Of a DNA stretch of 64,000 nucleotides, positions 20,485 through 57,506 are shown in pieces. How positions within the stretch are numbered: the first letter of the stretch is position 1; every line of letters begins with the position of its first letter. Below the pieces are notes generated by a model. That model worked only from the letters and a program-made list of their open reading frames with translations, had not been told where the DNA came from and did no database searches. The position numbers were made by a program, and so were the translations under genes. Origin of the DNA: an uncultured Roseovarius sp. (GTDB lineage Bacteria; Pseudomonadota; Alphaproteobacteria; Rhodobacterales; Rhodobacteraceae); the NCBI RefSeq assembly GCF_913057115.1, contig NZ_CAJXNN010000015.1, forward strand, positions 1-64,000, written 5' to 3'.

Positions 20485-23400
20485 ATGAGCGGACAATGGG
20501 AATTCTGGATCGACCGGGGCGGCACCTTCACCGATATCGTGGCGCTTGACCCAAAAGGCACGGTGCATACCCACAAACTTCTGTCCGAAAACCCCGACCG
20601 CTACCGCGATGCCGCCGTGCAAGGCATCCGTGAGGTGATGGAGGTTACCGGCGACTTCCCCAACCAAAGCATCCGCGCCGTCAAGATGGGTACCACCGTC
20701 GCCACCAACGCCCTTTTGGAGCGTAAGGGGGAACGCGTGCTTTTGCTCATCACCAAGGGGTTCCGCGACCTGCTGCAAATCGGCTATCAGACGCGCCCGC
20801 GCCTCTTTGATCTGCATATCAAACGCCCCGACCTGCTGTATGAGGAGGTGGCCGAGATGGACGAGCGCCTCGATGCCGATGGCGCGGTGGTTCAGGCCCT
20901 CGATGAAGACACCACCCGCATCGCCCTCCAGGCAGCCTATGACAAGGGTATTCGCGCGGTGGCCATCGCGGGCCTGCACGCCTACCTCAACCCCGATCAC
21001 GAACGCCGCGTTGCCGACATCGCCGCCGAACTGGGCTTTACCCAAATCACCGCCAGCCATCAGGTCAACCGATTGGCCAAGCTGGTGGGCCGCGGCGATA
21101 CCTCCGTGGTCGATGCCTACCTTTCCCCGATCCTGCGCCGCTATGTCGATCAGGTGGCCGATGCGCTGGACGTGGGCCGCGCCTGCGAGGCGCTGTTGTT
21201 CATGCAATCGAACGGCGGGCTAACCGATGCGCGGCTCTTTCAAGGCAAGGATGCCATCCTGTCCGGCCCCGCGGGCGGTATCGTCGGCATGGTCAAAACC
21301 GGCGAGGCGGCGGGCCATGACAAGCTCATCGGCTTTGACATGGGCGGCACCTCCACCGATGTCAGCCACTACGCCGGGGACTACGAACGCAGCTTCGAGA
21401 CTGAGGTGGCCGGCGTGCGGATGCGCGCGCCGATGATGGATATTCACACCGTCGCCGCCGGTGGCGGTAGCATCTGCAAATTCGAAGGCGGCCGCTTTCA
21501 GGTTGGCCCCGAAAGCGCGGGCGCCGATCCCGGCCCGGCCTGCTATCGCCGCGGCGGGCCGCTCACGGTGACCGATTGCAACGTCATGCTGGGCAAGCTG
21601 AACCCCGATCACTTCCCCGCCGTTTTCGGCCCAAACGGTGACGAGCCGCTAGACGCCGAGGTGGTCCGCCAGAAATTTGCCGACCTCGCCCAAACCGTGG
21701 CTGAAGAAACGGGCGAAAGCCCCCGCACCCCCGAAGACATGGCCGAAGGCTTCCTGCGCATCGCCGTCGACAACATGGCCAACGCGATCAAGAAAATCAG
21801 CGTGCAGCGCGGCCATGACGTGACCGGCTATACCCTGCAATGCTTCGGCGGCGCGGGCGGGCAACATGCCTGCCTCGTGGCCGATGCGCTTGGCATGCAA
21901 AAGGTGCTGATCCACCCGCACGCAGGCGTCCTTTCGGCCTATGGCATGGGCCTTGCCGAAATCCGCGCCATGCGCGAGGTGCAGCTTGATGCCCCCCTCT
22001 CGGCCATCCAAACCGCCGAAGACGCGCTTGCCCAAATCACCCGCCAAGCCCGTGGCGAGGTTGAGGCGCAGGGCGTGCAAGACATCTCCCTGCAACCCCG
22101 CGCCCACCTGCGCTATGACGGCTCCCATCAGGCGCTTGAGGTGCCTTATGGCAGCCCCGACCAGATGCAGAAGGATTTCGAAGCCGCCCACCGGCAACGC
22201 TTTGGCTTTCACAGCCCTGAACGCGACATCCTGTTCGACATGCTCAGCGTCGAGGCCATCGGCGAAACCGGCCAAGCGCCCAGCGCCGCCATGCCCTCGG
22301 GCCAAGGAAACCCAAAGGCACAAATCCCCGTGCATATCGAAAACGGCTATACCGATATCCCGCTTTATGACCGCGACGATCTGAACGCCAATACGACCGT
22401 CCAAGGCCCCGCCATCATAACTGAACCCACCGGCACCAACATGGTCGAACCCGGCTGGTCCGCCCGTGTCGATGCCATGGGAAACCTCCTGCTCCAGCGC
22501 ACGGAAACCAAATCCCGCGACCTTGCCGCAGGCACACAGGCCGACCCTGTGCTTCTGGAGGTGTTCAACAACCTCTTCATGTCCGTCGCCGACCAAATGG
22601 GCGCGACGCTGGCCAATACCTCATGGTCGGTGAACATCAAGGAACGGCTGGATTTCTCCTGCGCCATCTTCGACGACAAGGGCGATCTGGTGGCCAATGC
22701 CCCGCATGTCCCGGTGCACCTTGGCTCCATGTCCGACAGCATCAAAACCGTGATGCGCCTCAATCCCGATGTTTGCCCCGGCGATGCCTTCATGCTCAAC
22801 TCGCCCTATAACGGCGGCACCCACCTGCCCGATGTGACCGTGGTCACCCCTGTGTTCGTCGGCGACACCCCCGCCTTCTGGCTTGGCTCGCGCGGGCACC
22901 ACGCCGATATCGGTGGCCGCACCCCCGGAAGTGCGCCGCCCGACAGCAGCCATATCGATGAAGAAGGCGTTTTGATCGACAACGTCAAACTCGTCGACCA
23001 AGGCAGCCTTTTGGAAGAAAAGGCCGAAGCGGTGCTCGCCTCGGGCCGCTACCCCTGCCGCAACATCCGCCAGAACATGGCCGACCTGAAAGCCCAAGTC
23101 GCCGCCAATGAAACCGGACGGCAGGAACTCCTCAAGGTCGTCGACCACTACGGCCTCGATGTGGTGCAGGCCTATATGGGCCACGTTCAGGACAACGCCG
23201 AAGAAAGCGTGCGCCGGGTGATCGACCGCCTCAAAGACGGTGAATTCACCTACCCGATGGATATCGGCAGCACGATCCAAGTGAAGGTCACCGTCGATCA
23301 CGCCAACCGCGCGGCCACCATCGACTTCACCGGCACCTCACCGCAGAACCCCGGCAACTACAACGCCCCGCGCTCGATCTGTGACGCGGTGGTGCTCTAT

Positions 23401-44936: not shown

Positions 44937-45518
44937 CTATCGCAGCCCGTCTTCACCTTTGACTTCATCGACGGTCAGCCCACCCATACGGTCGTGAATA
45001 CGCCCGCCGCGCGACATGGCCAGCACAAAGAGCAACTCGTCGGCGCGGGGGCCATCGGGCAGACCCACTTCCATCCCATCAAAATGACTGCGCACATAGG
45101 CGGCGTTGATATGGCCCAGTGGCACATCAAGGCGGGTGCCCGGCCCGCCTTGTTTCATTGAAGAGGGCACGATGGCCTTGGCCTCGCCCAGCCGGGCGCG
45201 CATGGCGTAACCGCCCGGCACGTGCCAAAGCGCGGTATGCTCAAGCTCGCCGCGTTCCCCGGCCATGGCGGCCTTGCCGTAGCCGTCGATGCCCTCGGCA
45301 CCGCCCATGGCCTCGACCAGACGGTCGGTCATCATCAGGCCCAGCGGTTTGAGGTCATCCATGGCCGATTGCAGATCGTCCACATAGGTGCCTGCAAAAG
45401 GGTTCTTGACCAGCGCCGCGATGGCGGCGCGGCGGCGGGGCTGGTCGGCGAAGGGGCCGCCATCGTGGTGAATCTCTTCGACGAAAAGCGCGGTTTTACG
45501 CAGGGTGAACTCGGGCAT
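44937..45518 (-). CDS. DUF1185 'amino acid synthesis' family protein
   Basis: 193 residues from ATG 45518. It matches DUF1185: TLRKTALFVEEIHHDGG, KNPFAGTYVDDLQSAMDDLK, YGKAAMAGERGELEHTALWH, and LGHINAAYVRSHFDGMEV. The family name is historical and no activity is established here. The gene start lies 23 bp inside UPF0280, showing strong coupling. It is the last gene of the heterocycle-type cluster, so it may act on a ring-opening or amide product. That is inference. Confidence 0.8.
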   Translation of the reverse strand: MPEFTLRKTALFVEEIHHDGGPFADQPRRRAAIAALVKNPFAGTYVDDLQSAMDDLKPLGLMMTDRLVEAMGGAEGIDGYGKAAMAGERGELEHTALWHVPGGYAMRARLGEAKAIVPSSMKQGGPGTRLDVPLGHINAAYVRSHFDGMEVGLPDGPRADELLFVLAMSRGGRIHDRMGGLTVDEVKGEDGLR

Positions 45519-46353
45519 GTTCTGGGTCTTTCTTTTGGATGAGCGAAGGCGCGCCAACAAGGCGCTGTGCGCCTTGCAGGGTCAGTACGGCGGCGGTGAT
45601 CAGGCCTTGGGCGATCAGCAATTCTGCATAAGCCGCGCCGGTGTCGAGGGCTTTGGCCTTGTCTTGCTCAGACAAGGCGGCGACATGGGTGGTGACGAGC
45701 CGCGCGCCAAGATCACTATCGTGCGCAAGGTCCTTGGCCGGCTGCCGGACGATGGCCGGGTGGCCCGGCAGATCAGTGGCATTGGCGATCATCGTGGCGG
45801 CGGCATCGGCCATGGCCGCGCCGGGGGCCAGCACGGTAACCGCATCGGCGATGCCCAGCGAATGGCTGCGCCCTTGCCAGCCGGAAGTGGCGACGCCGCG
45901 CACCGGGTCGCCGTGGCAGATCAGGGCCTGGCCGGGGGGTGCGGTGGCCAGCGCGGCGCGCATCGCCTCACCTTCACATAGGTGAAAGGCCACGTCGCCG
46001 CCGTTGTTGACATAGGCGCGGGTGATCCCCGGCCCGTAACAAATAGCGCGCAGGATGGTTTCGGCCCCCGCGCCCGCCACGGCGGCCATGGGCGTGATGA
46101 AGCGCGGCACGAAGGGCTGTGTTGCGCGGTGCATGATGCGGGCGGTTTCGCCTTTGGGTACGGGGCCATGTGCGCGGCGCAGGCGGGGTAGTTCCTCCAC
46201 GAGTTCGTTCAGCAGGGTTTCAAACCTTTGGGTGGCGCGGGCAAACCCGGCCTTTCGCCCTGGCCCGTCCATCCCGACGATCATGTCGATCGGCCCGTGG
46301 TGCAGGTGAAGCCTTTGACCATCCGGGAGCCATGATGCCTGTGCCCCGCTCAT
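45496..46353 (-). CDS. UPF0280 family (ApbE-like) protein
   Basis: 285 residues. UPF0280 segments seen: IMHRATQPFVPRFITPMAAVAG, AYVNNGGDVAFHLCEGE, GVATSGWQGRSHSLGIADAV, and TMIANATDLPGHPAI. The NNGGD and SGW...H pattern echoes ApbE-type flavin transferases. Function is unproven. It overlaps the reductase-like gene upstream by 4 bp and DUF1185 downstream by 23 bp. It might maturate a flavin- or Fe-S-containing enzyme of the cluster. Confidence 0.8.
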   Translation of the reverse strand: MSGAQASWLPDGQRLHLHHGPIDMIVGMDGPGRKAGFARATQRFETLLNELVEELPRLRRAHGPVPKGETARIMHRATQPFVPRFITPMAAVAGAGAETILRAICYGPGITRAYVNNGGDVAFHLCEGEAMRAALATAPPGQALICHGDPVRGVATSGWQGRSHSLGIADAVTVLAPGAAMADAAATMIANATDLPGHPAIVRQPAKDLAHDSDLGARLVTTHVAALSEQDKAKALDTGAAYAELLIAQGLITAAVLTLQGAQRLVGAPSLIQKKDPEHARVHPA

Positions 46354-47804
46354 GCTTTGCCCTTGGGGCCGACGGCGCGGGCGGCGCTGCCGTATTCGCC
46401 GCCTTTTTCGAGGATGTCCGAAAGGCTGCGCACCGCTTTGTCATGGCCGCCTAGCACCCGGTAATCTTCGCGCGGCAGGGTGAATTCCAAGGGCGCGACC
46501 AGCGCCGGGGTGGGCACATAGCCAAAGGAGCCTTCGGGCATCTGCGTGACATCCACCATCAGGGTGATCCCGCCACCGGGCCAGACATAGGCAGGCGCAC
46601 CGCCGCAGGTCACACGGGTTTTGAGCGCCTGCACCGAGCGGGTTAGCTTTACCGGGTTGCGCGTGACGCCCGAGCGCAGGGAACCGCCTGCGCCCGCCTG
46701 AAACATCACCGTGCAAAGCGCCGGTTCACAGTTTTCGGCGATCAGGTCGACCGAAGGCTGGAGTGCCTCTGGCATAGGGGTCGGTTGCGGGGTCAGGTCA
46801 TCGTCCAGCACGTAATAGGCCGCGTGTTCGCCGGTGGTGGAGACCATCAGCAGGGTCAGCCCCGGCCGCGCGCCTTTCTTTTCCAGCCATGGGTTGAGAA
46901 TCGCCAGCGGGTCATCAATATCCGTCCCGCCCCAGCCAAGGCCGGGGTTGGCAACTTGGAAATAGCGCCCGGGGGTGGAGCGGCGGCCCTTGATGCGGAT
47001 GCCGGTATCGGGCCAGCCCAGAACCTTTCCGGCCTGATGTTCACTGACCACGCCGGTGATATGGTCATCGACCACGACGACTTCATCCACCAAGCCGTGC
47101 CATTGACTGGCGAACATCCCGATGGTGGCCGAGCCGCAGCCAACGCGCATGCGTTCCTCGCGCTGGCCATCGACGATGGGGGCCTTGCCAGCCTGCACCG
47201 TGACGGTTGCGCCGCCGTCGATGGTCAGCTCCACCGCCTCGCGGTTGCACAGGCGCAGGAGGGTGTCGCAGGTGACGCGGCCTTCGGGTTTGCTGCCGCC
47301 GGTGAGGTGTTCGACCCCGCCAAGCGACAGCATTTGCGAGCCGTATTCGGAGGTGGTGACATGGCCCACGGCCTCGCCCTGCGCCCGCACCGTCGCGGCC
47401 TCCTCGCCCAGGTGCCTGTCGGTGTCGATTTTCACCTTCACGCCACAGTAGGAATAGATCGCCTCGGTCACCACGGTGACGAAATCCGCGCCGTCTACCT
47501 CTTGGCTGACGATGAAGGGGGCGGGTTTGTAATCGGGGTAGGTGGTGCCCGCGCCGACGCCGCTTATCGCCAAGGTTTCATTGCCCATAACCTCGCCGTC
47601 CCAATCGGATTTGAGGAAGGGGCGGACCTCATCGCCTGCGGCCAAGCGACGGTCCAGCACGGTGAAGGGATCGCAGCGGACGATCTTGCCATCCTCGTTG
47701 GCGTAGCGGTCGCAGGCGCCCACTTTGCCCGGTGCGATGTAGCACATCACCGGGCAGGCATCGCAGCGGATCTTTTCCTCTTTTTCGCGGGCGCGGTCGC
47801 TCAT
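46350..47804 (-). CDS. 6-hydroxynicotinate reductase-like Fe-S protein
   Basis: 484 residues. Near the N-terminus cysteines 14, 17, 21 and 31 (CDACPVMC...GACDRY) form a probable [4Fe-4S] site; others follow in SYCGVKVK. The rest includes GGVEHLTGGSKPEGRVTCDT, RVGCGSATIGMF, and an NPGLGWGGTDIDDPL stretch. I recognise the family annotated as 6-hydroxynicotinate reductase, which reduces a hydroxylated pyridine ring using ferredoxin. Coupled by 4 bp on both sides to the molybdenum hydroxylase and UPF0280, consistent with hydroxylate-then-reduce ring breakdown. The actual substrate is unknown. Confidence 0.7.
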   Translation of the reverse strand: MSDRAREKEEKIRCDACPVMCYIAPGKVGACDRYANEDGKIVRCDPFTVLDRRLAAGDEVRPFLKSDWDGEVMGNETLAISGVGAGTTYPDYKPAPFIVSQEVDGADFVTVVTEAIYSYCGVKVKIDTDRHLGEEAATVRAQGEAVGHVTTSEYGSQMLSLGGVEHLTGGSKPEGRVTCDTLLRLCNREAVELTIDGGATVTVQAGKAPIVDGQREERMRVGCGSATIGMFASQWHGLVDEVVVVDDHITGVVSEHQAGKVLGWPDTGIRIKGRRSTPGRYFQVANPGLGWGGTDIDDPLAILNPWLEKKGARPGLTLLMVSTTGEHAAYYVLDDDLTPQPTPMPEALQPSVDLIAENCEPALCTVMFQAGAGGSLRSGVTRNPVKLTRSVQALKTRVTCGGAPAYVWPGGGITLMVDVTQMPEGSFGYVPTPALVAPLEFTLPREDYRVLGGHDKAVRSLSDILEKGGEYGSAARAVGPKGKA

Positions 47805-50494
47805 GCCTTTGCCTCCCGCATCGCCGCCAGCACGCGGTGCGGCAGCGCGGGCAGTTCGGTGACCAATGCGCCGGTGGCGTGGCGAATGGCGTTGAGGATC
47901 GCAGGCGCGGTGGGGATCAGCACGTGTTCGCCCAAGCCCTTGGCCCCCATCGGGCCTTCGGGGTCGGGCACCTCAAGGAAGATCGTGTCGATCGGGGGCA
48001 TGTCGCCGGTGGTGGGAATGAGGTAATCGTGCAGGTTTTCGGTGCGGGCGGGGATATATTCCTCCATCAGCGCAAGGCCCAAACCTTGGGCGATGCCGCC
48101 CTGCACCTGACCTTCGGCCAAGATCGGGTTGATCAACCGGCCCAGATCATGCGCGGCGGTGATATGGGTGACTTTGACCGTGCCAAGCCGGGTGTCCACC
48201 GTCAGGCGGACCACCTGTGCGCCGTAGCCATAGACCGCATAGGGCGCGCCTTGGCCGTTTTCATCCAAGGGCCGCGTGGGTGGGTCATAGGTTTCTTCGG
48301 CGGCGAGGACATAGCCGTTGGCGTCAGCCTGTAAGTCCGACAGGGCGATGTGGCGCGCGGCTTGGCAGTCGCTGACCGTGAGGGTGGTGCCATCGAGGTG
48401 GAACGCGGCCTCCTTACCCATGTTGGTCATTTGCAGGATGCGTTGGCGCAGGGCGGCCCCGGCGCGCAGGGCGGCGCTTCCGGTGACATAGGTTTGCCGC
48501 GAGCCGGAGGTTTTGCCGCAATCGGGGGTGCGGGCGGTATCGGCGTCGATGATCTGCATCTGGGCGATGGGCAGGCCAAGGGCGTCGGCGCAAATCTGGG
48601 TGATCACGGTGTTGGAGCCTTGGCCGATGTCGACCGCCCCTTGGTGCAGGCGCAAATCGCCCTGGGCTGTGATCCCCACCCGAATGGTCGAGGGGTTCGG
48701 GATGCCGGTATTGCCGCAGCCATACCAACAGGAGGCCACGCCAACCCCGTGGCGCATGGCCCCGCCCTGGGCGTTCTCTGTTTCGGCCCAGGCCAGCGCC
48801 TTCTTCCAAGGCTCTTCAAGGGCCTCAAGACAGGCGGCCATGCCGACGCCATGCAGGACTTGCCCGCAGACGGTATCCTGCCCGTCGCGCAAGGCGTTGA
48901 GGTGGCGGAAGGCCAAGCGGTCCATTCCGGCCTTGTCGGCAAGTTCATCGAACAGGGTTTCTTGCAGGATTGCCGCCTGTGGCACGCCAAAGCCCCGGAA
49001 AGCGCCCGAGATCGGCTCGTAGCTGTAATTGGCGCGCGCCTCGGCGTGGTAGTGGGGGATGTAATAGGGGCCGGAGGCATGCACCGGCACCCGGCCCGAG
49101 ACCGTCGGCCCCCAACTGGCATAGGCGCCAGTGTTGAAATCACCGTCAAAGGTCATGCCCGTCAGCCGCCCCTCGGCATCGACGCCGATGGTGCCGCGCA
49201 TGTCGGAGGGGTGGCGCTTGGTCGTGGTGGCCATGGATTCGGCGCGGCTATAGATCATCCGCGCGGGCCGCCCGGTTTTCAGCGCCACAAGCCCGATGAG
49301 CGGTTGCAGCGAGAGGTCCAGCTTGGCCCCGAAACCACCGCCGGTTGCTGCGGGCAGGATGCGCAGCTTCTCAAGCGGTAGGCCAAGGATGCGCGCGGTA
49401 TCGTCGCGGTCCATGATCGGGGCTTGGGTGCAGGCGCGGATGACAAGCGTGTCGCCTTCCATCCAAGCCACCCCGGCCTCGGGCTCAATATAGGCGTGTT
49501 CCACATATCCGGTGCGCATATGGCCGCTTGCCAGATGGGCCGCGTTTTTCAGGGCGTCTTGGGCTGTGCCGCGCCGCACCACGCCTGTGATCAGGGTGTT
49601 ATCGGGGTGGGTGTCATGCACGGGGGCGTCGCTTGGGGCCTCGGCCCAAGTGATGGGGAAGGTTTCAAGCTCCAGCGATTCGATCAGCGCAGGGTCGCCC
49701 GCGACAAGGGCCACGGCCTCGCCCCGCATGCGGACGCGCGATTGGGCAAGGGCCGGTTGATCGACGAAAGCCGGGATGACGCCAAAGCGGTTCACGCCGG
49801 GAATGTCACTTGCCGTGAAGATATGCAGCGGGCCGGCGTGCGCGGCCTGCCATTCTTCAAGATCGCCGAAGGTGAAGGTCATCGGCGCGGCGGGGGCGCG
49901 GATCGCCCGGACCAAAAGCGCACCTTCGGGGACGTGATCAGCACCGTAGCTTTCGCTGCCGTCGACCTTGGGGGCACCGTCCAGCCGCTCCAGTGGCGCG
50001 CCCACCGATTGCCCCGCGTCGGGCATCGGTGGGGCTGCGCCGGGGGCGGCATCCAGCACCGCGTCAAGGATGCGGGTGTAGCCGGTACAACGGCAAAGCA
50101 CGCCGCCAAGGGCCTCCTCAGCCTCGGCACGGGTCGGGGTTGGGATGCGTTCCAGAAGGGCGGTGGCGGCCATCAGCATGCCGGGCGTGCAAATTCCGCA
50201 TTGCGCCGCGCCGTGACGCAGGAAGGCGCTTTGCAGGCGGGTGGCGGTCAGGCCTTCGACGGTGGTGATATTCCGCCCGGCGGCTTGGGCGGCAGGGGTC
50301 AGGCAGGCGCAGACCGGCGCGCCATCCAAAAGAACGGTGCAGGCCCCGCAATCGCCCGCGTCGCAGCCCACCTTGGTGCCGCGCATCCCCAGCCCCTCGC
50401 GCAGAAGTTCCGACAAGCGGGTGCCGGGATGGGCGGGCAGGCTGACTGTTTCGTCGTTGACGCTTAGGGTGAGGGTGTCAAAGGGCCTGTTCAT
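47801..50494 (-). CDS. Molybdenum hydroxylase, fused [2Fe-2S] and molybdopterin subunits
   Basis: 897 residues, xanthine-dehydrogenase family. Residues 1-150 form the small subunit: plant-type cysteines 44, 49, 52 and 62, then the second cluster QCGIC (Cys99, Cys102) with CRCTGYTRI. From about 165 the large subunit follows, with GGGFGAKLD, ISGAFRGFGVPQAA and the catalytic Glu856 in GAKGLGEHVLIP. Such enzymes hydroxylate C-H next to ring nitrogen using water, and the small-large fusion is less common than separate genes. The FAD subunit is encoded upstream with a 4-bp overlap. Probably a heterocycle hydroxylase. Confidence 0.85.
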   Translation of the reverse strand: MNRPFDTLTLSVNDETVSLPAHPGTRLSELLREGLGMRGTKVGCDAGDCGACTVLLDGAPVCACLTPAAQAAGRNITTVEGLTATRLQSAFLRHGAAQCGICTPGMLMAATALLERIPTPTRAEAEEALGGVLCRCTGYTRILDAVLDAAPGAAPPMPDAGQSVGAPLERLDGAPKVDGSESYGADHVPEGALLVRAIRAPAAPMTFTFGDLEEWQAAHAGPLHIFTASDIPGVNRFGVIPAFVDQPALAQSRVRMRGEAVALVAGDPALIESLELETFPITWAEAPSDAPVHDTHPDNTLITGVVRRGTAQDALKNAAHLASGHMRTGYVEHAYIEPEAGVAWMEGDTLVIRACTQAPIMDRDDTARILGLPLEKLRILPAATGGGFGAKLDLSLQPLIGLVALKTGRPARMIYSRAESMATTTKRHPSDMRGTIGVDAEGRLTGMTFDGDFNTGAYASWGPTVSGRVPVHASGPYYIPHYHAEARANYSYEPISGAFRGFGVPQAAILQETLFDELADKAGMDRLAFRHLNALRDGQDTVCGQVLHGVGMAACLEALEEPWKKALAWAETENAQGGAMRHGVGVASCWYGCGNTGIPNPSTIRVGITAQGDLRLHQGAVDIGQGSNTVITQICADALGLPIAQMQIIDADTARTPDCGKTSGSRQTYVTGSAALRAGAALRQRILQMTNMGKEAAFHLDGTTLTVSDCQAARHIALSDLQADANGYVLAAEETYDPPTRPLDENGQGAPYAVYGYGAQVVRLTVDTRLGTVKVTHITAAHDLGRLINPILAEGQVQGGIAQGLGLALMEEYIPARTENLHDYLIPTTGDMPPIDTIFLEVPDPEGPMGAKGLGEHVLIPTAPAILNAIRHATGALVTELPALPHRVLAAMREAKA

Positions 50495-51345
50495 GCGGCG
50501 GCCTCATACTCGTGGGCCAGATCAGCCAAGGCTCGGCGCATGAGCTCCGCCGCCGCGTGGGCGCGATAGATGGCATCGGCGCGGATATCGGCGATGGGGG
50601 CAAGGGCAGGTGTGATGATGGCATCTATGGCAAGGGCCGGCAGGCTGCTGTCCACCGGCTGTCCGATCAAGGCCTGTTCCAATTCGGGCAGACGCGTGGC
50701 TACCGGGCCGCAGGCCCCGATGGCAAGAGCGGCTTGTTTGACGTGACCGTCCTCCACCTCAATGCGCACAGCAACCATGGCAATGGAAATCACCAGATAC
50801 CTGCGCGCGCCCAGCTTCGCGAAGCGCGAACGCCCTTGCACCGCGCTCTGCGGAACATGGATCGCCGACAACATCTCACCGGGGGCCAGCGCGGTTTGCC
50901 GTGGGCCTGTGATGAACGCCTTTAGCGGTAGAGTGCGCACACCTTGGATCGAGGTCAATTCCACCTCAGCATCCAGGGTCAATAAGCAAGGCACGCCATC
51001 GGCCGCGGGCGAAGCGTTGCAAAGATTCCCCGCGATTGTCCCCGCGTTCTGAATCTGACGCGATCCGACCTCCTTCGCCGCCTCTTTCAACATATCGAAG
51101 GCGGGCGGCAAATCGGCGGCGATAACGTCTGACCACGTCGTTGCCGCACCGATACGGAAACCGGACGAAGCTGACCCGATCCCACGAAGTGCCTTGATAC
51201 CAGTGATATCAAGCACCGACCCGGGCAAACTTCGCGCCTCGGTGGCTGGGAAAAGGTCGGTGCAGCCCGCCGCGATGGTCACCCCGCCCTCGGCCAGAAG
51301 GCCAAGCGCGTCTTCCATCCTGTCGGGCCTGTGATAAGCAGCCAT
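50491..51345 (-). CDS. FAD-binding subunit of molybdenum hydroxylase
   Basis: 284 residues from ATG 51345. CoxM/XdhB-like medium subunit: TIAAGCTDLFPATEA as the FAD pyrophosphate loop (normally AGGTDL), then VGSRQIQNAGTIAGNLCNASPAADGVPCLLTLDAEVEL. It passes electrons from the [2Fe-2S] clusters of the fused subunit to NAD or another acceptor. The 4-bp overlap with the fused subunit gene indicates a stoichiometric complex. Confidence 0.85.
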   Translation of the reverse strand: MAAYHRPDRMEDALGLLAEGGVTIAAGCTDLFPATEARSLPGSVLDITGIKALRGIGSASSGFRIGAATTWSDVIAADLPPAFDMLKEAAKEVGSRQIQNAGTIAGNLCNASPAADGVPCLLTLDAEVELTSIQGVRTLPLKAFITGPRQTALAPGEMLSAIHVPQSAVQGRSRFAKLGARRYLVISIAMVAVRIEVEDGHVKQAALAIGACGPVATRLPELEQALIGQPVDSSLPALAIDAIITPALAPIADIRADAIYRAHAAAELMRRALADLAHEYEAAA

Positions 51346-51426
51346 GGCGCACCGCTGTCCTGAAACCACCGGAAGATCCGGCAATGGAATGGTGCGGCAG
51401 GCGGCGCGCGCCTGTCAACTGCGCTG

Positions 51427-52683
51427 TCAGCTGCCGGTCGCCTCGGCCATGGCCGACAGGAATTGCGCCACTTCGGCATGGCTGTTGTAATGGCTGATGG
51501 AGACCCTGATGCAATCCTCAACCCCCAAGGGGCCAAGGATATTGCCACAGTAATGGTCGTTCTTGCGGATGTGAACGCGAATGCCACGCTCGGCAAGGAA
51601 ATCCACCAGATCAGCAGAATTGATGGAGGCAAGACGCAACGAAACAACACCCTCGCGCCCATCCAAAGCATCGCCGCCAATGAACTCTACCCCCGGCATT
51701 TCTCGCAGCCCTGGAAGGTTTCCGGTGCCAGACAACGCCGCCTGCATCAACGCGCGTTCATGCACGGCAATCGCTTGTGTCGCCGCTTCCAGACGGGCGC
51801 GGGGGGCGGTGACATCGCTCACCTCACCGCCCAACCAATCGAGATAATCAACGACGTCCGAAAAGGTGGCATAGGCCCCGGTATCACGGGTGCCCAATTC
51901 CCAGTTTTCCGTCGGACCATCCTTGATCTGTTCCTTGGTCAGAGCCGTCAGCCGGTCCGAGGCCCAGCCGACACCATAGCCATGGCGCGAGAACACTTTG
52001 TAAGGTGATACTGCATAGCCATCGGCCTGACAGGTGGAGACATCCACCGCACCGTGGCTGGCATGCTGTATCCCGTCCACGATGATGAAACATTCGGGCG
52101 CAACCTCACGAATGGCGGCGGCAATCGCCGGTACATCAACGGCCATACCTGTAACCGGCGAGGTATGGACAATGGTCGCAACGCGCAGATCCGAGGTGAT
52201 ATGTTCACGATAAGCATCGACCGATACCGTCCCCGTGGCATCATCATGCGGCACTCGGATATGAGGGCGTCCAGTCACCTCGGCCCAGCGCGCCATCGCA
52301 CTGTTCGACGCCGGATGCTCAAGGGACGACCCCAACATCACACCCCCCTGCGGTGCGCCCAAGGCGGCCGTGCGGACCAATCGGAACAAAACCTCTGTGC
52401 CGCTTTCCCCCACGAAGGGCACGCCACCCGAGGCGTTGAAAAACAGCATCATGTCTGCCTTGCCTTTGGCAATCACCTCCATCAACGCCCGCGAAGCAAC
52501 GTTAGCACGCCCTTGGTTGTCTGGATAGCCTGCGAACTTGGCTGATGTTTCGATCACGGATTTCAGCCGCAAGGCCCCGCCCGCATTCTCGAAAAACACC
52601 CTGGGGCCTTCGAACGGGCACATGTCGACATGTGCGAAACGACTGCGAATAGCCTGTAAAAGGTCTGGTGTGTCTGAGATCAT
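51427..52683 (-). CDS. Class V aminotransferase-family PLP enzyme
   Basis: 418 residues from ATG 52683. Fold-type I PLP enzyme of the NifS/class V group: FFENAGGALRLKSVI, GSSLEHPASNSAMARW, IVHTSPVTGMAVDVPAI, FIIVDGIQHASHGAVDV and the PLP lysine in AVSPYKVFSRHGYGVGW. It could be an aminotransferase, desulfurase, kynureninase-like or C-N lyase; it lacks an obvious IscS catalytic loop. It lies 81 bp upstream of the FAD-subunit gene on the same strand, so it is likely part of the same pathway. Confidence 0.78.
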   Translation of the reverse strand: MISDTPDLLQAIRSRFAHVDMCPFEGPRVFFENAGGALRLKSVIETSAKFAGYPDNQGRANVASRALMEVIAKGKADMMLFFNASGGVPFVGESGTEVLFRLVRTAALGAPQGGVMLGSSLEHPASNSAMARWAEVTGRPHIRVPHDDATGTVSVDAYREHITSDLRVATIVHTSPVTGMAVDVPAIAAAIREVAPECFIIVDGIQHASHGAVDVSTCQADGYAVSPYKVFSRHGYGVGWASDRLTALTKEQIKDGPTENWELGTRDTGAYATFSDVVDYLDWLGGEVSDVTAPRARLEAATQAIAVHERALMQAALSGTGNLPGLREMPGVEFIGGDALDGREGVVSLRLASINSADLVDFLAERGIRVHIRKNDHYCGNILGPLGVEDCIRVSISHYNSHAEVAQFLSAMAEATGS

Positions 52684-55298: not shown

Positions 55299-55763
55299 TT
55301 AGTTGACGTTGATGTCCACGCTGTCGGCCAGCGTGTTGGCGATGAAGCAATAGCGGTGCGCGCGGTGCTGCATCTCGTCCAGCTTGTCTTGCTCGACCGT
55401 GAATCCAGTGTCGAAACGCACCACCGGGTTCAGGTCGATCCGCGTGACCGACATTTGCCCCTTTGGGTTCTTGCCCAAATGCGCCTCGGCATAGTCGTGG
55501 TAGCTGGCCACCGGCCAACCCGCCTTGGCGCAAAGCGCCAAGAAGGTCATCATGTGGCAACTCGACAGGGCCGCGGCGAGGGCCTGTTCGGGGTTGGTGT
55601 TTTCCGGATCGCCGCCCCAATCAGGGGCGGCGTCCACTTGCAGCTCATGCTCGCGGTTGTATTGCACGGTATGGGAGTTGGAAAACTTGCCAGTTTCCAA
55701 AACCGGTTCCGCGCGGTGCCAGTGCAACTCGACCGCGAGATCGGAAAGCGTCGCGGCCTTCAT
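55299..55763 (-). CDS. OsmC-family protein
   Basis: 154 residues. OsmC/Ohr-type fold with ALAAALSSCHMMTFLALCAKAGW holding the first redox cysteine and HRAHRYCFIANTLAD holding the second. Such proteins reduce organic hydroperoxides or act in thiol metabolism. The start overlaps the DmdA-like stop by 4 bp (55760-55763), so its function is probably tied to that reaction, for example handling a reactive product such as formaldehyde-linked or thiol species. Confidence 0.85.
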   Translation of the reverse strand: MKAATLSDLAVELHWHRAEPVLETGKFSNSHTVQYNREHELQVDAAPDWGGDPENTNPEQALAAALSSCHMMTFLALCAKAGWPVASYHDYAEAHLGKNPKGQMSVTRIDLNPVVRFDTGFTVEQDKLDEMQHRAHRYCFIANTLADSVDINVN

Positions 55764-56929
55764 GCTGTCGCCTGTGCGTTGATGGCGGCACCGGTGGCGG
55801 CAATCTGCTTGCGCGGATCGAAGAAGGGTTTTTCCACGACGGTCGCGGTGGTCTCACCCGTCTGGGTCAGAACTTCCAACTCGCTGCCCAGTTCGGCCGC
55901 CTCAACCGCCACCATGGCCAGCGCGATGTTCTTTTTCAGGCGCGGCGAATAAACCGCCGAGGTTACCTTGCCCACAGTCTCGCCCTCGTGATTGATCGTC
56001 CAGAAGGCGGTGTTCGGGCCGGCCATCGGATCGCCATCAATGATCAGGCCAACCTGTTTGCGGGCAACACCATTGTCACGGATGCGTTGCAGGGCGAACT
56101 TGCCGATGAAATCGGCCTCCATGTCGAGGTTCACCAGACGGTCAAAGCCCAACTCGAAGGGGTTCGTGGTGATGTCGGCATCGGCGTGGTACGACAGCAT
56201 GCCACCTTCGATGCGGCGGATGGTCGAGGTGTGGCCGGGCTTGAGGCCCATGGGCATACCAACGGCCATGATCCGCTCCCACAGGGCGTCGCCATAGGTG
56301 GAGTCTCGCAGGTAAATCTCGTACCCCAATTCGCTGGACCAGCCGGTGCGCGACACGATCAGCGGAATACCGTCCAGCTGCGTTTCGATGAACCAGTAGT
56401 AACGCAGGTCCATGATCTCGTCGCCAAAGAGTTCCCGCATGATCTCACCCGATTTCGGGCCTTGCAGCTGCAACGGCGACACATCCGGCTCGGTGATGGT
56501 CACATCAAGGCCCGAGTGTACGGCCACACCCTGCGCCCAAAGCAGGATGTCGCTATCGGCCAGCGACAGCCAGAAGTGATCTTCCGCCAGTTTCAGCAAG
56601 ATCGGATCGTTCAGGATGCCGCCTTCGGCATTGGTGATCAGGACGTATTTGCACTGACCGACCGACATGTTGGACAGGTCGCGCGGGGTCAGCATCTGGG
56701 TGAACTTTGCAGCATCCGGCCCGGTGATTTCGACCTGACGCTCGACCGCCACGTCACACAGGATGGCGTCGTTCACAAGGTTCCAGAAGTTTTGTTCCGG
56801 ATCACCGAAATCGCGCGGGATGTACATGTGGTTGTAAACCGAAAATCCCTGCGCGCCCCAACGCACGGTGGCGTCGAAGTAAGGCGATTTGCGAATCTGA
56901 GTACCAAAGCCAAAATCTTGAAGTTGCAT
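55760..56929 (-). CDS. DmdA-like / GcvT-family aminomethyltransferase
   Basis: 389 residues from ATG 56929, where GGGTGGAG sits 6 nt upstream. It has the GcvT/DmdA fold: YNHMYIPRDFG, CDVAVERQVEITGPDAAKF, MLTPRDLSNMSVGQC, NDPILLKLAEDHFWLSLADSD, and EPDVSPLQLQGPKSG. These segments are clearly like DMSP demethylase (DmdA), which moves a methyl from the sulfonium to tetrahydrofolate. It diverges enough that N-methyl or other methyl donors are equally possible. First gene of a run with OsmC, hydratase and CoA ligase. Confidence 0.75.
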   Translation of the reverse strand: MQLQDFGFGTQIRKSPYFDATVRWGAQGFSVYNHMYIPRDFGDPEQNFWNLVNDAILCDVAVERQVEITGPDAAKFTQMLTPRDLSNMSVGQCKYVLITNAEGGILNDPILLKLAEDHFWLSLADSDILLWAQGVAVHSGLDVTITEPDVSPLQLQGPKSGEIMRELFGDEIMDLRYYWFIETQLDGIPLIVSRTGWSSELGYEIYLRDSTYGDALWERIMAVGMPMGLKPGHTSTIRRIEGGMLSYHADADITTNPFELGFDRLVNLDMEADFIGKFALQRIRDNGVARKQVGLIIDGDPMAGPNTAFWTINHEGETVGKVTSAVYSPRLKKNIALAMVAVEAAELGSELEVLTQTGETTATVVEKPFFDPRKQIAATGAAINAQATA

Positions 56930-57506
56930 GATGTTCTCCACCCTCATTTGCGCTTCGGGCCCGGCCCTAGGCTGCGTTGTCTCCTGAGGCGGATGTAATC
57001 GGTTTCATTTGAAATTCCGGCCTAAAAATCGGGGCTTACGCAGACCGTTCAGGCTTGGATTCAGGGCTTTGAGGACCGATTGGACCAAGTTGCCAAGTAG
57101 CGACACGGGCGTGTCGCAAATATCTGAATCAGTATTTCACGATTGATCCGCCTGTTGTGCGCATCTTTTCAAATCCGTCGTTCATCGTAGAGATGTGAGC
57201 GGCGGCTTTGCGCAGGGAGCGGAGTTCGCGAAGTTGCGACGTTTCTCGATACCAGACCTTCGTTTCAACCGCCACAAATGCGGGCAGTGAGCCCTTGCTG
57301 GACGTTCAAAGCATAGACCCGGGCCCGAATAGCACCGCAGGTGCCAGGCCATCGCCGCTTCGTCCCGCAAAACCGACATGCACAGGCTTTATCCGCAGTC
57401 TGGGACGAACACCAAACTGACCCACGTGCAAGCCACGCCGCGGGCTTGACCCGGGGCCTCTTTCACGTTCCAAAAGGTGAAAACGCAAAGCATCCCCGAG
57501 GACCAA
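56930..57506. other. 577-bp intergenic region, divergent promoters
   Basis: It separates the leftward DmdA-like operon from the rightward agmatinase gene. No convincing coding frame. It presumably holds both promoters. An imperfect CAAGCC/GGCTTG stem (about 57429-57448) and a TTTCAC/GTGAAA pair (about 57462-57482) lie in the agmatinase leader, and GAGGA precedes its ATG. No known riboswitch was recognised. Confidence 0.55.

Follow-up and report, generated by a model that had tools for sequence, protein, structure and literature searches.

Nicotinate fermentation of the Eubacterium barkeri type proceeds through a nicotinate dehydrogenase (Ndh), a 6-hydroxynicotinate reductase (Hnr) and an enamidase, and the intermediate 1,4,5,6-tetrahydro-6-oxonicotinate (THON) is described as being opened and deaminated by this bifunctional enamidase (PMC9304392). 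For Azorhizobium, Bradyrhizobium and strain SG-6C, the nicotinate clusters are described as containing, besides Hnr, two unknown proteins and a putative ABC transporter (PMC3511419). A contig of an uncultured Roseovarius sp. (NZ_CAJXNN010000015.1; the 64,000 nucleotides analysed are called the window) was found to contain five overlapping genes which probably, although with considerable room for doubt, encode the first two steps and the accessory proteins of the THON route, with UPF0280 as the maturase of Hnr and with unlinked HyuAB and clade a DUF1185 proteins acting in ring opening. In the proposed pathway, a molybdenum hydroxylase with flavin adenine dinucleotide (FAD) and Fe-S centres would convert nicotinate to 6-hydroxynicotinate, followed by its reduction to THON by Hnr, an Fe-S flavoprotein. 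UPF0280 would be a maturation factor dedicated to Hnr and would most likely attach the covalent flavin of Hnr, for which Thr381 is the best acceptor candidate. THON, a six-membered lactam, would then be opened by an ATP-dependent HyuAB-type lactamase encoded on another contig (C3) of the host genome, in place of the bifunctional enamidase, and the DUF1185 protein would act at or just after ring opening, perhaps freeing ammonia from the resulting enamine. The initial annotation had called the cluster an incompletely described pathway; the route is known in kind, and it is the roles proposed for UPF0280 and DUF1185 and the enamidase-free HyuAB variant that look new.

Organization of the gene cluster

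All six open reading frames (ORFs) of the cluster were found on the - strand, and five of them were found to be joined by overlaps of 4, 4, 4 and 23 base pairs (bp), as first annotated. The FAD subunit of the hydroxylase (50491..51345) contained FAD_binding_5 and CO_deh_flav_C domains and has its likely start at ATG 51345, the ORF being open back to TTG 51384. It was found to overlap at 50491-50494 with a fused subunit of 897 amino acids (47801..50494) containing Fer2, Fer2_2, MoCoBD_1 and MoCoBD_2 domains, that is, two [2Fe-2S] clusters and the molybdopterin part. This was followed, with an overlap at 47801-47804, by the Hnr-like gene (46350..47804, 484 amino acids) and, with an overlap at 46350-46353, by the UPF0280 gene (45496..46353, 285 amino acids). 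The last gene, DUF1185 (44937..45518, 193 amino acids), overlaps UPF0280 at 45496-45518 when its start is taken as ATG 45518. Family calls were made with Pfam and NCBIfam at E 0.001. The host genome is 98.7% complete.

Conservation of the gene set

Hnr and UPF0280 were in view in all of 57 related neighbourhoods; 56 also contained DUF1185 and 38 the FAD-linked hydroxylase, far above chance, and the full five-gene set was in view in 38 of the 57. Most neighbourhoods without the FAD subunit were found to contain a NicB-type hydroxylase, which carries a cytochrome c domain. Thirty-seven neighbourhoods came from a sample of 398 Pseudomonadota genomes (31) and from 26 plasmid records (6); here UPF0280 accompanied Hnr in 37 of 37, DUF1185 in 36 and the FAD subunit in 20. 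A same-genus set of 20 further loci, taken from 20 of the 30 additional Hnr-bearing genomes that a search of 60 had yielded, contained UPF0280 and DUF1185 in 20 of 20 and the FAD subunit in 18. The co-occurrence check proposed in the initial annotation thus found Hnr, UPF0280 and DUF1185 very strongly together. A pattern scan of genome contigs gave 116 loci, 111 of them with Hnr; UPF0280 followed Hnr within 1.5 kb in 76 of 80 evaluable loci, whereas for DUF1185 the count within 3.5 kb was 47 of 61. Three of the four genomes with UPF0280 exceptions were tested (L086 was left out), and all three were found to contain a UPF0280 of 347-358 bits elsewhere, on another contig in two of them and, in L084, apparently on the same contig about 8 kb from Hnr. 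The titles of the metagenome-assembled genomes of L155, L178 and L150 (Bordetella parapertussis, Rickettsia typhi and Thermoflexus) are doubtful for such loci, and mislabelling is suspected.

In Clostridia, long Hnr matches were found in 14 of 398 genomes of the phylum in a search started from a Syntrophomonas genome. Of the 17 regions from these 14 genomes, 15 contained UPF0280, 15 an enamidase-type amidohydrolase and 14 DUF1185, and the molybdenum subunit was split in most of them, as described for E. barkeri (PMC5746545). The solved enamidase 2vun was matched by the one clostridial amidohydrolase tested (E 2e-163) and by one from a Sulfitobacter cluster (E 1e-106). Since most of the clostridial regions join enamidase, Hnr, UPF0280 and DUF1185, the trio of Hnr, UPF0280 and DUF1185 appears to belong to the classical nicotinate route. 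In genomes of the same class with NicB-type clusters, UPF0280 and DUF1185 were found at the positions of the two unknown proteins of the rhizobial and SG-6C clusters, and the unknown proteins described there (PMC3511419) are probably UPF0280 and DUF1185.

Hnr and UPF0280

The Hnr-like protein was not matched by any Pfam or NCBIfam model at the above threshold, and a search of PDB libraries with its predicted model (pLDDT 81.7) yielded no convincingly similar fold. Full-length homologues were found in the clostridial enamidase clusters, and many of the plasmid homologues are annotated as '6-hydroxynicotinate reductase'. Six cysteines (14, 17, 21, 31, 223 and 359) were found to be invariant in the alignment of Pseudomonadota and clostridial Hnr, the first four forming a motif at residues 14-31 (47712..47765) which is a probable [4Fe-4S] site. 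Residues 375-381, Ser-Leu-Arg-Ser-Gly-Val-Thr (46662..46682), form a candidate flavin-acceptor motif resembling the target motif of ApbE (PMC12052999). Compared with the ApbE acceptor D-x-x-[ST]-G-A-[ST], this motif lacks the Asp and mostly ends in T, with V, S and C as exceptions; Thr was found at position 381 in 36 of 37 and 98 of 99 Hnr in two sets. The Hnr of E. barkeri reportedly contains a covalent flavin, a finding ascribed to Alhapel in 2006. Hnr was found to be unrelated to DUF39 (HcyBio), with an hhalign probability of 0.1%.

Some divergent Hnr forms were also observed. Hnr was present as two overlapping ORFs in G016 (C1:2969811-2971258, L070) and G838 (C1:642364-643781), with the break near residues 205-240, which could be due to gene fission or to a frameshift. 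Locus L247 (G790, C22) contained a divergent clostridial Hnr paralogue with a degenerate acceptor motif and two amidohydrolases (35-38% to enamidase-type references), with UPF0280 and DUF1185 not in view. In 44 clostridial genomes, the N-terminal four-cysteine motif of Hnr alone matched the starts of many ORFs of about 280-370 amino acids, which we presume may be radical-SAM activating enzymes.

The UPF0280 protein was assigned to NF003322 (332.1 bits against a cut-off of 290) and was found to have the fold of the flavin transferase ApbE; no Pfam ApbE match was obtained at E 0.001. Because no leader peptide was seen by eye, the protein is probably cytosolic. The motif AD..[AS]T was conserved in 38 of 40 UPF0280 and 15 of 16 ApbE, and in the window it contained Asp183-Thr187 (45793..45807), equivalent by motif to the metal-site Asp/Thr of ApbE; D280 and T284 are described as the metal ligands of E. 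coli Ftp (PMC4767422). The motif ATSG was found in 39 of 40 UPF0280 and in 4 of 16 ApbE, the Ser being invariant in ApbE and the following Gly variable. The equivalence of the metal site and of the Ser was drawn by motif and not from superposed coordinates. No cysteine was found among the invariant or nearly invariant UPF0280 columns.

Hnr was found in 32 of the 398 Pseudomonadota genomes, and UPF0280 above 300 bits was found in exactly the same 32 with no discordant genome (Fisher p 6e-48 by genome and 2e-24 by genus, both made too optimistic by relatedness); two other genomes with 20-bit UPF0280 matches were not counted. The UPF0280 profile was built from Hnr-linked proteins. It also caught DUF39-type COG2122 proteins in two Syntrophomonadaceae genomes (69-79 bits; G418 was the one genome checked for the DUF39 gene), so such relatives would probably have been detected in the 398-genome sample. 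In one Syntrophomonas genome, the HcyBio gene was found about 0.8 kb from the UPF0280 match. UPF0280 presumably corresponds to COG2122. The identical occurrence in 32 genomes together with the ApbE fold points to UPF0280 as the maturase of Hnr, on the maturation side of the two roles, maturation or ring opening, first suggested for UPF0280 and DUF1185. A further and tentative proposal is that UPF0280/COG2122 forms, beside ApbE, another family of flavin-attaching enzymes, cytosolic and with the ApbE fold but a different active site, which would install the covalent flavin of Hnr; in strict anaerobes, the unrelated homocysteine-forming DUF39 system may be served by this chemistry too.

Molybdenum hydroxylase and its substrate

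The best solved relative of the FAD subunit was found to be 3hrd_C, the FAD subunit of nicotinate dehydrogenase (E 3.6e-27), with 7dqx close behind (E 2.5e-26). The C-terminal part of the molybdenum subunit gave its best match with 3hrd_B, subunit M of nicotinate dehydrogenase (E 2.6e-60), followed by a next match at E 4.9e-40. The catalytic Glu856 named in the initial annotation (codon 47927..47929) was found to align with the Glu of 3hrd_B. A further active-site residue, Tyr591 (codon 48722..48724), and the WYGxGNTG motif in which it lies are common to the window subunit and 3hrd_B; Tyr591 is equivalent to Tyr13 of E. barkeri subunit M, which is described as modelled in contact with the ring nitrogen of nicotinate (PMC5746545). 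Homology and active-site residues thus point to a molybdenum nicotinate hydroxylase. The proposed hydroxylation and ring reduction of an N-heterocyclic acid held up at the sequence level, and the likely substrate was narrowed to nicotinate or a close 3-carboxypyridine.

Among 75 tabulated loci, the FAD-linked hydroxylase was found with enamidase in 5 and with HyuAB in 9, and the NicB-type hydroxylase with enamidase in 9 and with HyuAB in 2; the remaining loci had one part out of view or split subunits. Since one Hnr family is common to all four combinations of hydroxylase and ring opener, the simplest reading is that Hnr reduces one intermediate, 6-hydroxynicotinate, in all of them.

Ring opening and DUF1185

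No enamidase match was found in the host genome at E up to 0.001. Locus L290 on contig C3 of the host genome was found to contain HyuA and HyuB proteins with 66% and 78% identity, respectively, to proteins of the Sagittula cluster, which match Hydantoinase_A and Hydantoinase_B. In a comparison of 21 genomes of our own choosing, HyuA of the cluster type (65-73% identity) was found in all 14 window-type genomes, whereas the 3 enamidase-type genomes and the 4 genomes without Hnr had none (best 43%); enamidase at 79-84% identity was found only in the 3 enamidase-type genomes. The HyuAB genes on contig C3 are divergent from branched-chain-type transporter genes (LivH 68%, LivM 60%), and in several sister genomes transporter genes of the same kind lie immediately upstream of the operon with the hydroxylase; in L296 and L297, HyuAB adjoins the matching binding-protein gene. 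The shared kind of transporter beside HyuAB and the hydroxylase operon links the two loci. The HyuAB family is described as opening the lactams caprolactam and valerolactams in an ATP-dependent manner (PMC8453981, PMC11033972). No report of such an opening in nicotinate breakdown was found among the titles and starts of abstracts listed, a literature in which few subscription papers were covered.

A family of 457-487 amino acids without Pfam matches was observed to recur beside the cluster transporter genes (L005 2737-4200 and L004 12897-14270), with relatives in L272, L275, L280, L282, L286, L296 and L297. The window itself contained a HyuA-like sequence (20506-22497, + strand, 36% identity) inside an open frame of 1196 amino acids, distinct from the cluster-type HyuA and presumably an ordinary 5-oxoprolinase.

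The DUF1185 protein was assigned to PF06684 (AA_synth; 228 bits against a cut-off of 27) and is close to the solved structures 3byq and 2qtp. A midpoint-rooted tree of 91 DUF1185 sequences contained clade a (48 sequences, support 0.80), clade b (41 sequences, support 0.82) and a remote pair; the window protein belongs to clade a. Clade b was found by best match in all 30 enamidase loci with DUF1185 in view (of 32 enamidase loci), 11 of which also contained clade a, and clade a was found in 11 of 12 linked HyuAB loci and clade b in 4 of the 12. In the same tabulated loci, clade a alone was never found with enamidase, and clade b alone was never found with HyuAB. Since its clade follows the ring opener, DUF1185 is placed at or near ring opening, which agrees with the second of the two roles first suggested; that it is an enamine deaminase is a guess.

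Hnr and UPF0280 were observed with no DUF1185 within about 3-4 kb downstream in L087, L120 and L141 (SAR116 and other marine alphaproteobacteria), where DUF1185 may be dispensable or unlinked. A second DUF1185 of the host genome (contig C2, 168183-168707; L002, L071) belongs to the remote clade (34% to clade b), has an ABC ATPase gene nearby and is unlinked to Hnr.

Points against the proposed pathway and alternative explanations

Several points weigh against the proposed pathway. The HyuAB genes are not linked to the window cluster in the host genome, related genomes are non-independent observations, and 14 of the 61 evaluable loci of the pattern scan had no DUF1185 in view downstream of Hnr. 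Position 381 was found to be occupied by Val in two Hnr with UPF0280 still in the cluster (L060 and L154), by Cys in the clostridial Hnr of L246, and by Ser in two others and a paralogue. The idea of an enamine deaminase is weakened by the presence of DUF1185 in the enamidase clusters as well, the enamidase itself being described as deaminating (PMC9304392). The motif of the general-base His loop of ApbE was found in none of 40 UPF0280 against 12 of 16 ApbE, with a gap in the profile alignment, and UPF0280 relatives also accompany DUF39 homocysteine synthesis, to whose DUF39 protein Hnr is non-homologous. The homology of COG2122 and ApbE is also described as apparently stopping short of the flavin-binding region (Price et al., PMC5764234).

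A different role of UPF0280, that of a sulfur or Fe-S factor (persulfide or cluster maturation) for Hnr instead of a flavin transferase, is considered unlikely while keeping some weight. Homocysteine synthesis with DUF39 and NIL/ferredoxin is described as depending on COG2122, and a persulfide role was proposed by Rauch et al., as cited in PMC5764234. The missing catalytic His and the six invariant cysteines of Hnr would suit such a role, whereas the ApbE fold, the metal-site Asp/Thr and Ser kept by motif and the lack of conserved cysteines in UPF0280 argue against it, as does the covalent flavin said to be present in the E. barkeri Hnr.

The same chemistry acting on another pyridine carboxylate, such as picolinate or isonicotinate, or, after demethylation, on an N-methylated compound such as trigonelline or homarine is judged rather improbable. 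One tyrosine is insufficient to read the specificity of the hydroxylase, and the transporter was found to vary by lineage, between the LivHM_S and the LivH_F/LivM_F types. Some marine clusters have also added a Rieske oxygenase gene (L006 13535-14605, L008 14091-15158 and L009 13544-14614); the Sagittula protein of L006, on which Pfam was tested, contained a VanA_C domain. VanA-type Rieske oxygenases are a class that includes demethylases, and the gene suggests an added demethylation step for N-methylated pyridines. However, no Rieske gene was found among the ten scanned genes of and beside the window cluster, the equivalent of Tyr13 in subunit M is conserved, all four pairings of hydroxylase and ring opener have a single Hnr family in common, and the clostridial clusters carry the enamidase and the split hydroxylase of the nicotinate route.

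That DUF1185 is a protein of amino-acid metabolism, loosely linked here, is regarded as very improbable. The family is described as having a chorismate-mutase-like fold and branched-chain amino-acid transport genes as neighbours (PMC2954203), and it was found in 28 of the 366 Pseudomonadota genomes without Hnr. It was, however, also found in 31 of the 32 genomes with Hnr, with a clade that tracks the ring opener, and since many Hnr clusters themselves include a branched-chain-type transporter, it may be on the annotation of this transporter that the amino-acid inference is based. A hydroxylase acting on purines or aldehydes, with its neighbours a coincidence, can practically be dismissed: the family is broad and the whole 897-amino-acid subunit has aldehyde oxidoreductases as its top-scoring solved relatives, followed by xanthine dehydrogenases, a further point against the pathway, but its C-terminal part is nearest to nicotinate dehydrogenase and the gene set recurs across genera.

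Neighbouring genes

Upstream of the cluster, a class V pyridoxal phosphate (PLP) enzyme of 418 amino acids (51427..52683, - strand) containing an Aminotran_5 domain was found without overlap, its end lying 42 nucleotides short of the FAD ORF in its long, TTG-started form and 81 nucleotides short of the likely ATG 51345. The initial annotation had counted it as a cluster member; it was in view near none of the 57 related clusters (0 of 37 Pseudomonadota and plasmid, 0 of 20 same-genus), and it was rejected as a pathway member and is taken as a local neighbour outside the conserved system. A GcvT-fold protein (55760-56947, - strand) scored 377 bits with the dimethylsulfoniopropionate (DMSP) demethylase model, below its cut-off of 410, and its gene adjoins OsmC, enoyl-CoA hydratase and acyl-CoA ligase genes.

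Significance and comparison with known systems

The analysis gives a testable role to UPF0280 and DUF1185, two widespread unexplained families. If the proposal is true, UPF0280 in Pseudomonadota would be a one-client maturase explaining how Hnr acquires its flavin, with consequences for the unexplained need for COG2122 when homocysteine is formed anaerobically. The DUF1185 family, whose name refers to amino-acid synthesis and comes in part from its neighbourhood next to branched-chain-type transporters, would move to the breakdown of N-heterocycles. It is also predicted that Roseovarius and its marine relatives reduce the nicotinate ring and open it at the cost of ATP, a prediction which links to the marine turnover of vitamin B3 and pyridine betaines.

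The window cluster is like the E. barkeri type in its molybdenum hydroxylase with the Tyr13 equivalent and in its Hnr homologue, and most of the clostridial clusters fetched, a set outside which E. barkeri itself lies, share UPF0280 and DUF1185 with it. The molybdenum subunit is split there whereas it is fused to the Fe-S domain in the window, and the host genome contains HyuAB without enamidase. As to the rhizobial and SG-6C type, the NicB-type clusters analysed here contain a hydroxylase with a cytochrome c domain and clade b DUF1185, whereas the window contains an FAD-linked hydroxylase and clade a DUF1185, with HyuAB unlinked. Compared with the flavin transferases ApbE, Ftp and FmnB, UPF0280 is without the catalytic His loop and the Pfam ApbE match, is probably cytosolic and has one dedicated client family in Pseudomonadota. 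The homocysteine system of COG2122, DUF39 and NIL-ferredoxin is alike in UPF0280, taken as COG2122, and differs in that Hnr is unrelated to DUF39 and the proposed pathway is catabolic. The HyuAB/oxoprolinase lactamases, such as the caprolactamase CapAB as described (PMC8453981), share the Hydantoinase_A and Hydantoinase_B domains and the proposed lactam type of substrate, whereas THON, the substrate proposed here, is a carboxylated cyclic enamide.

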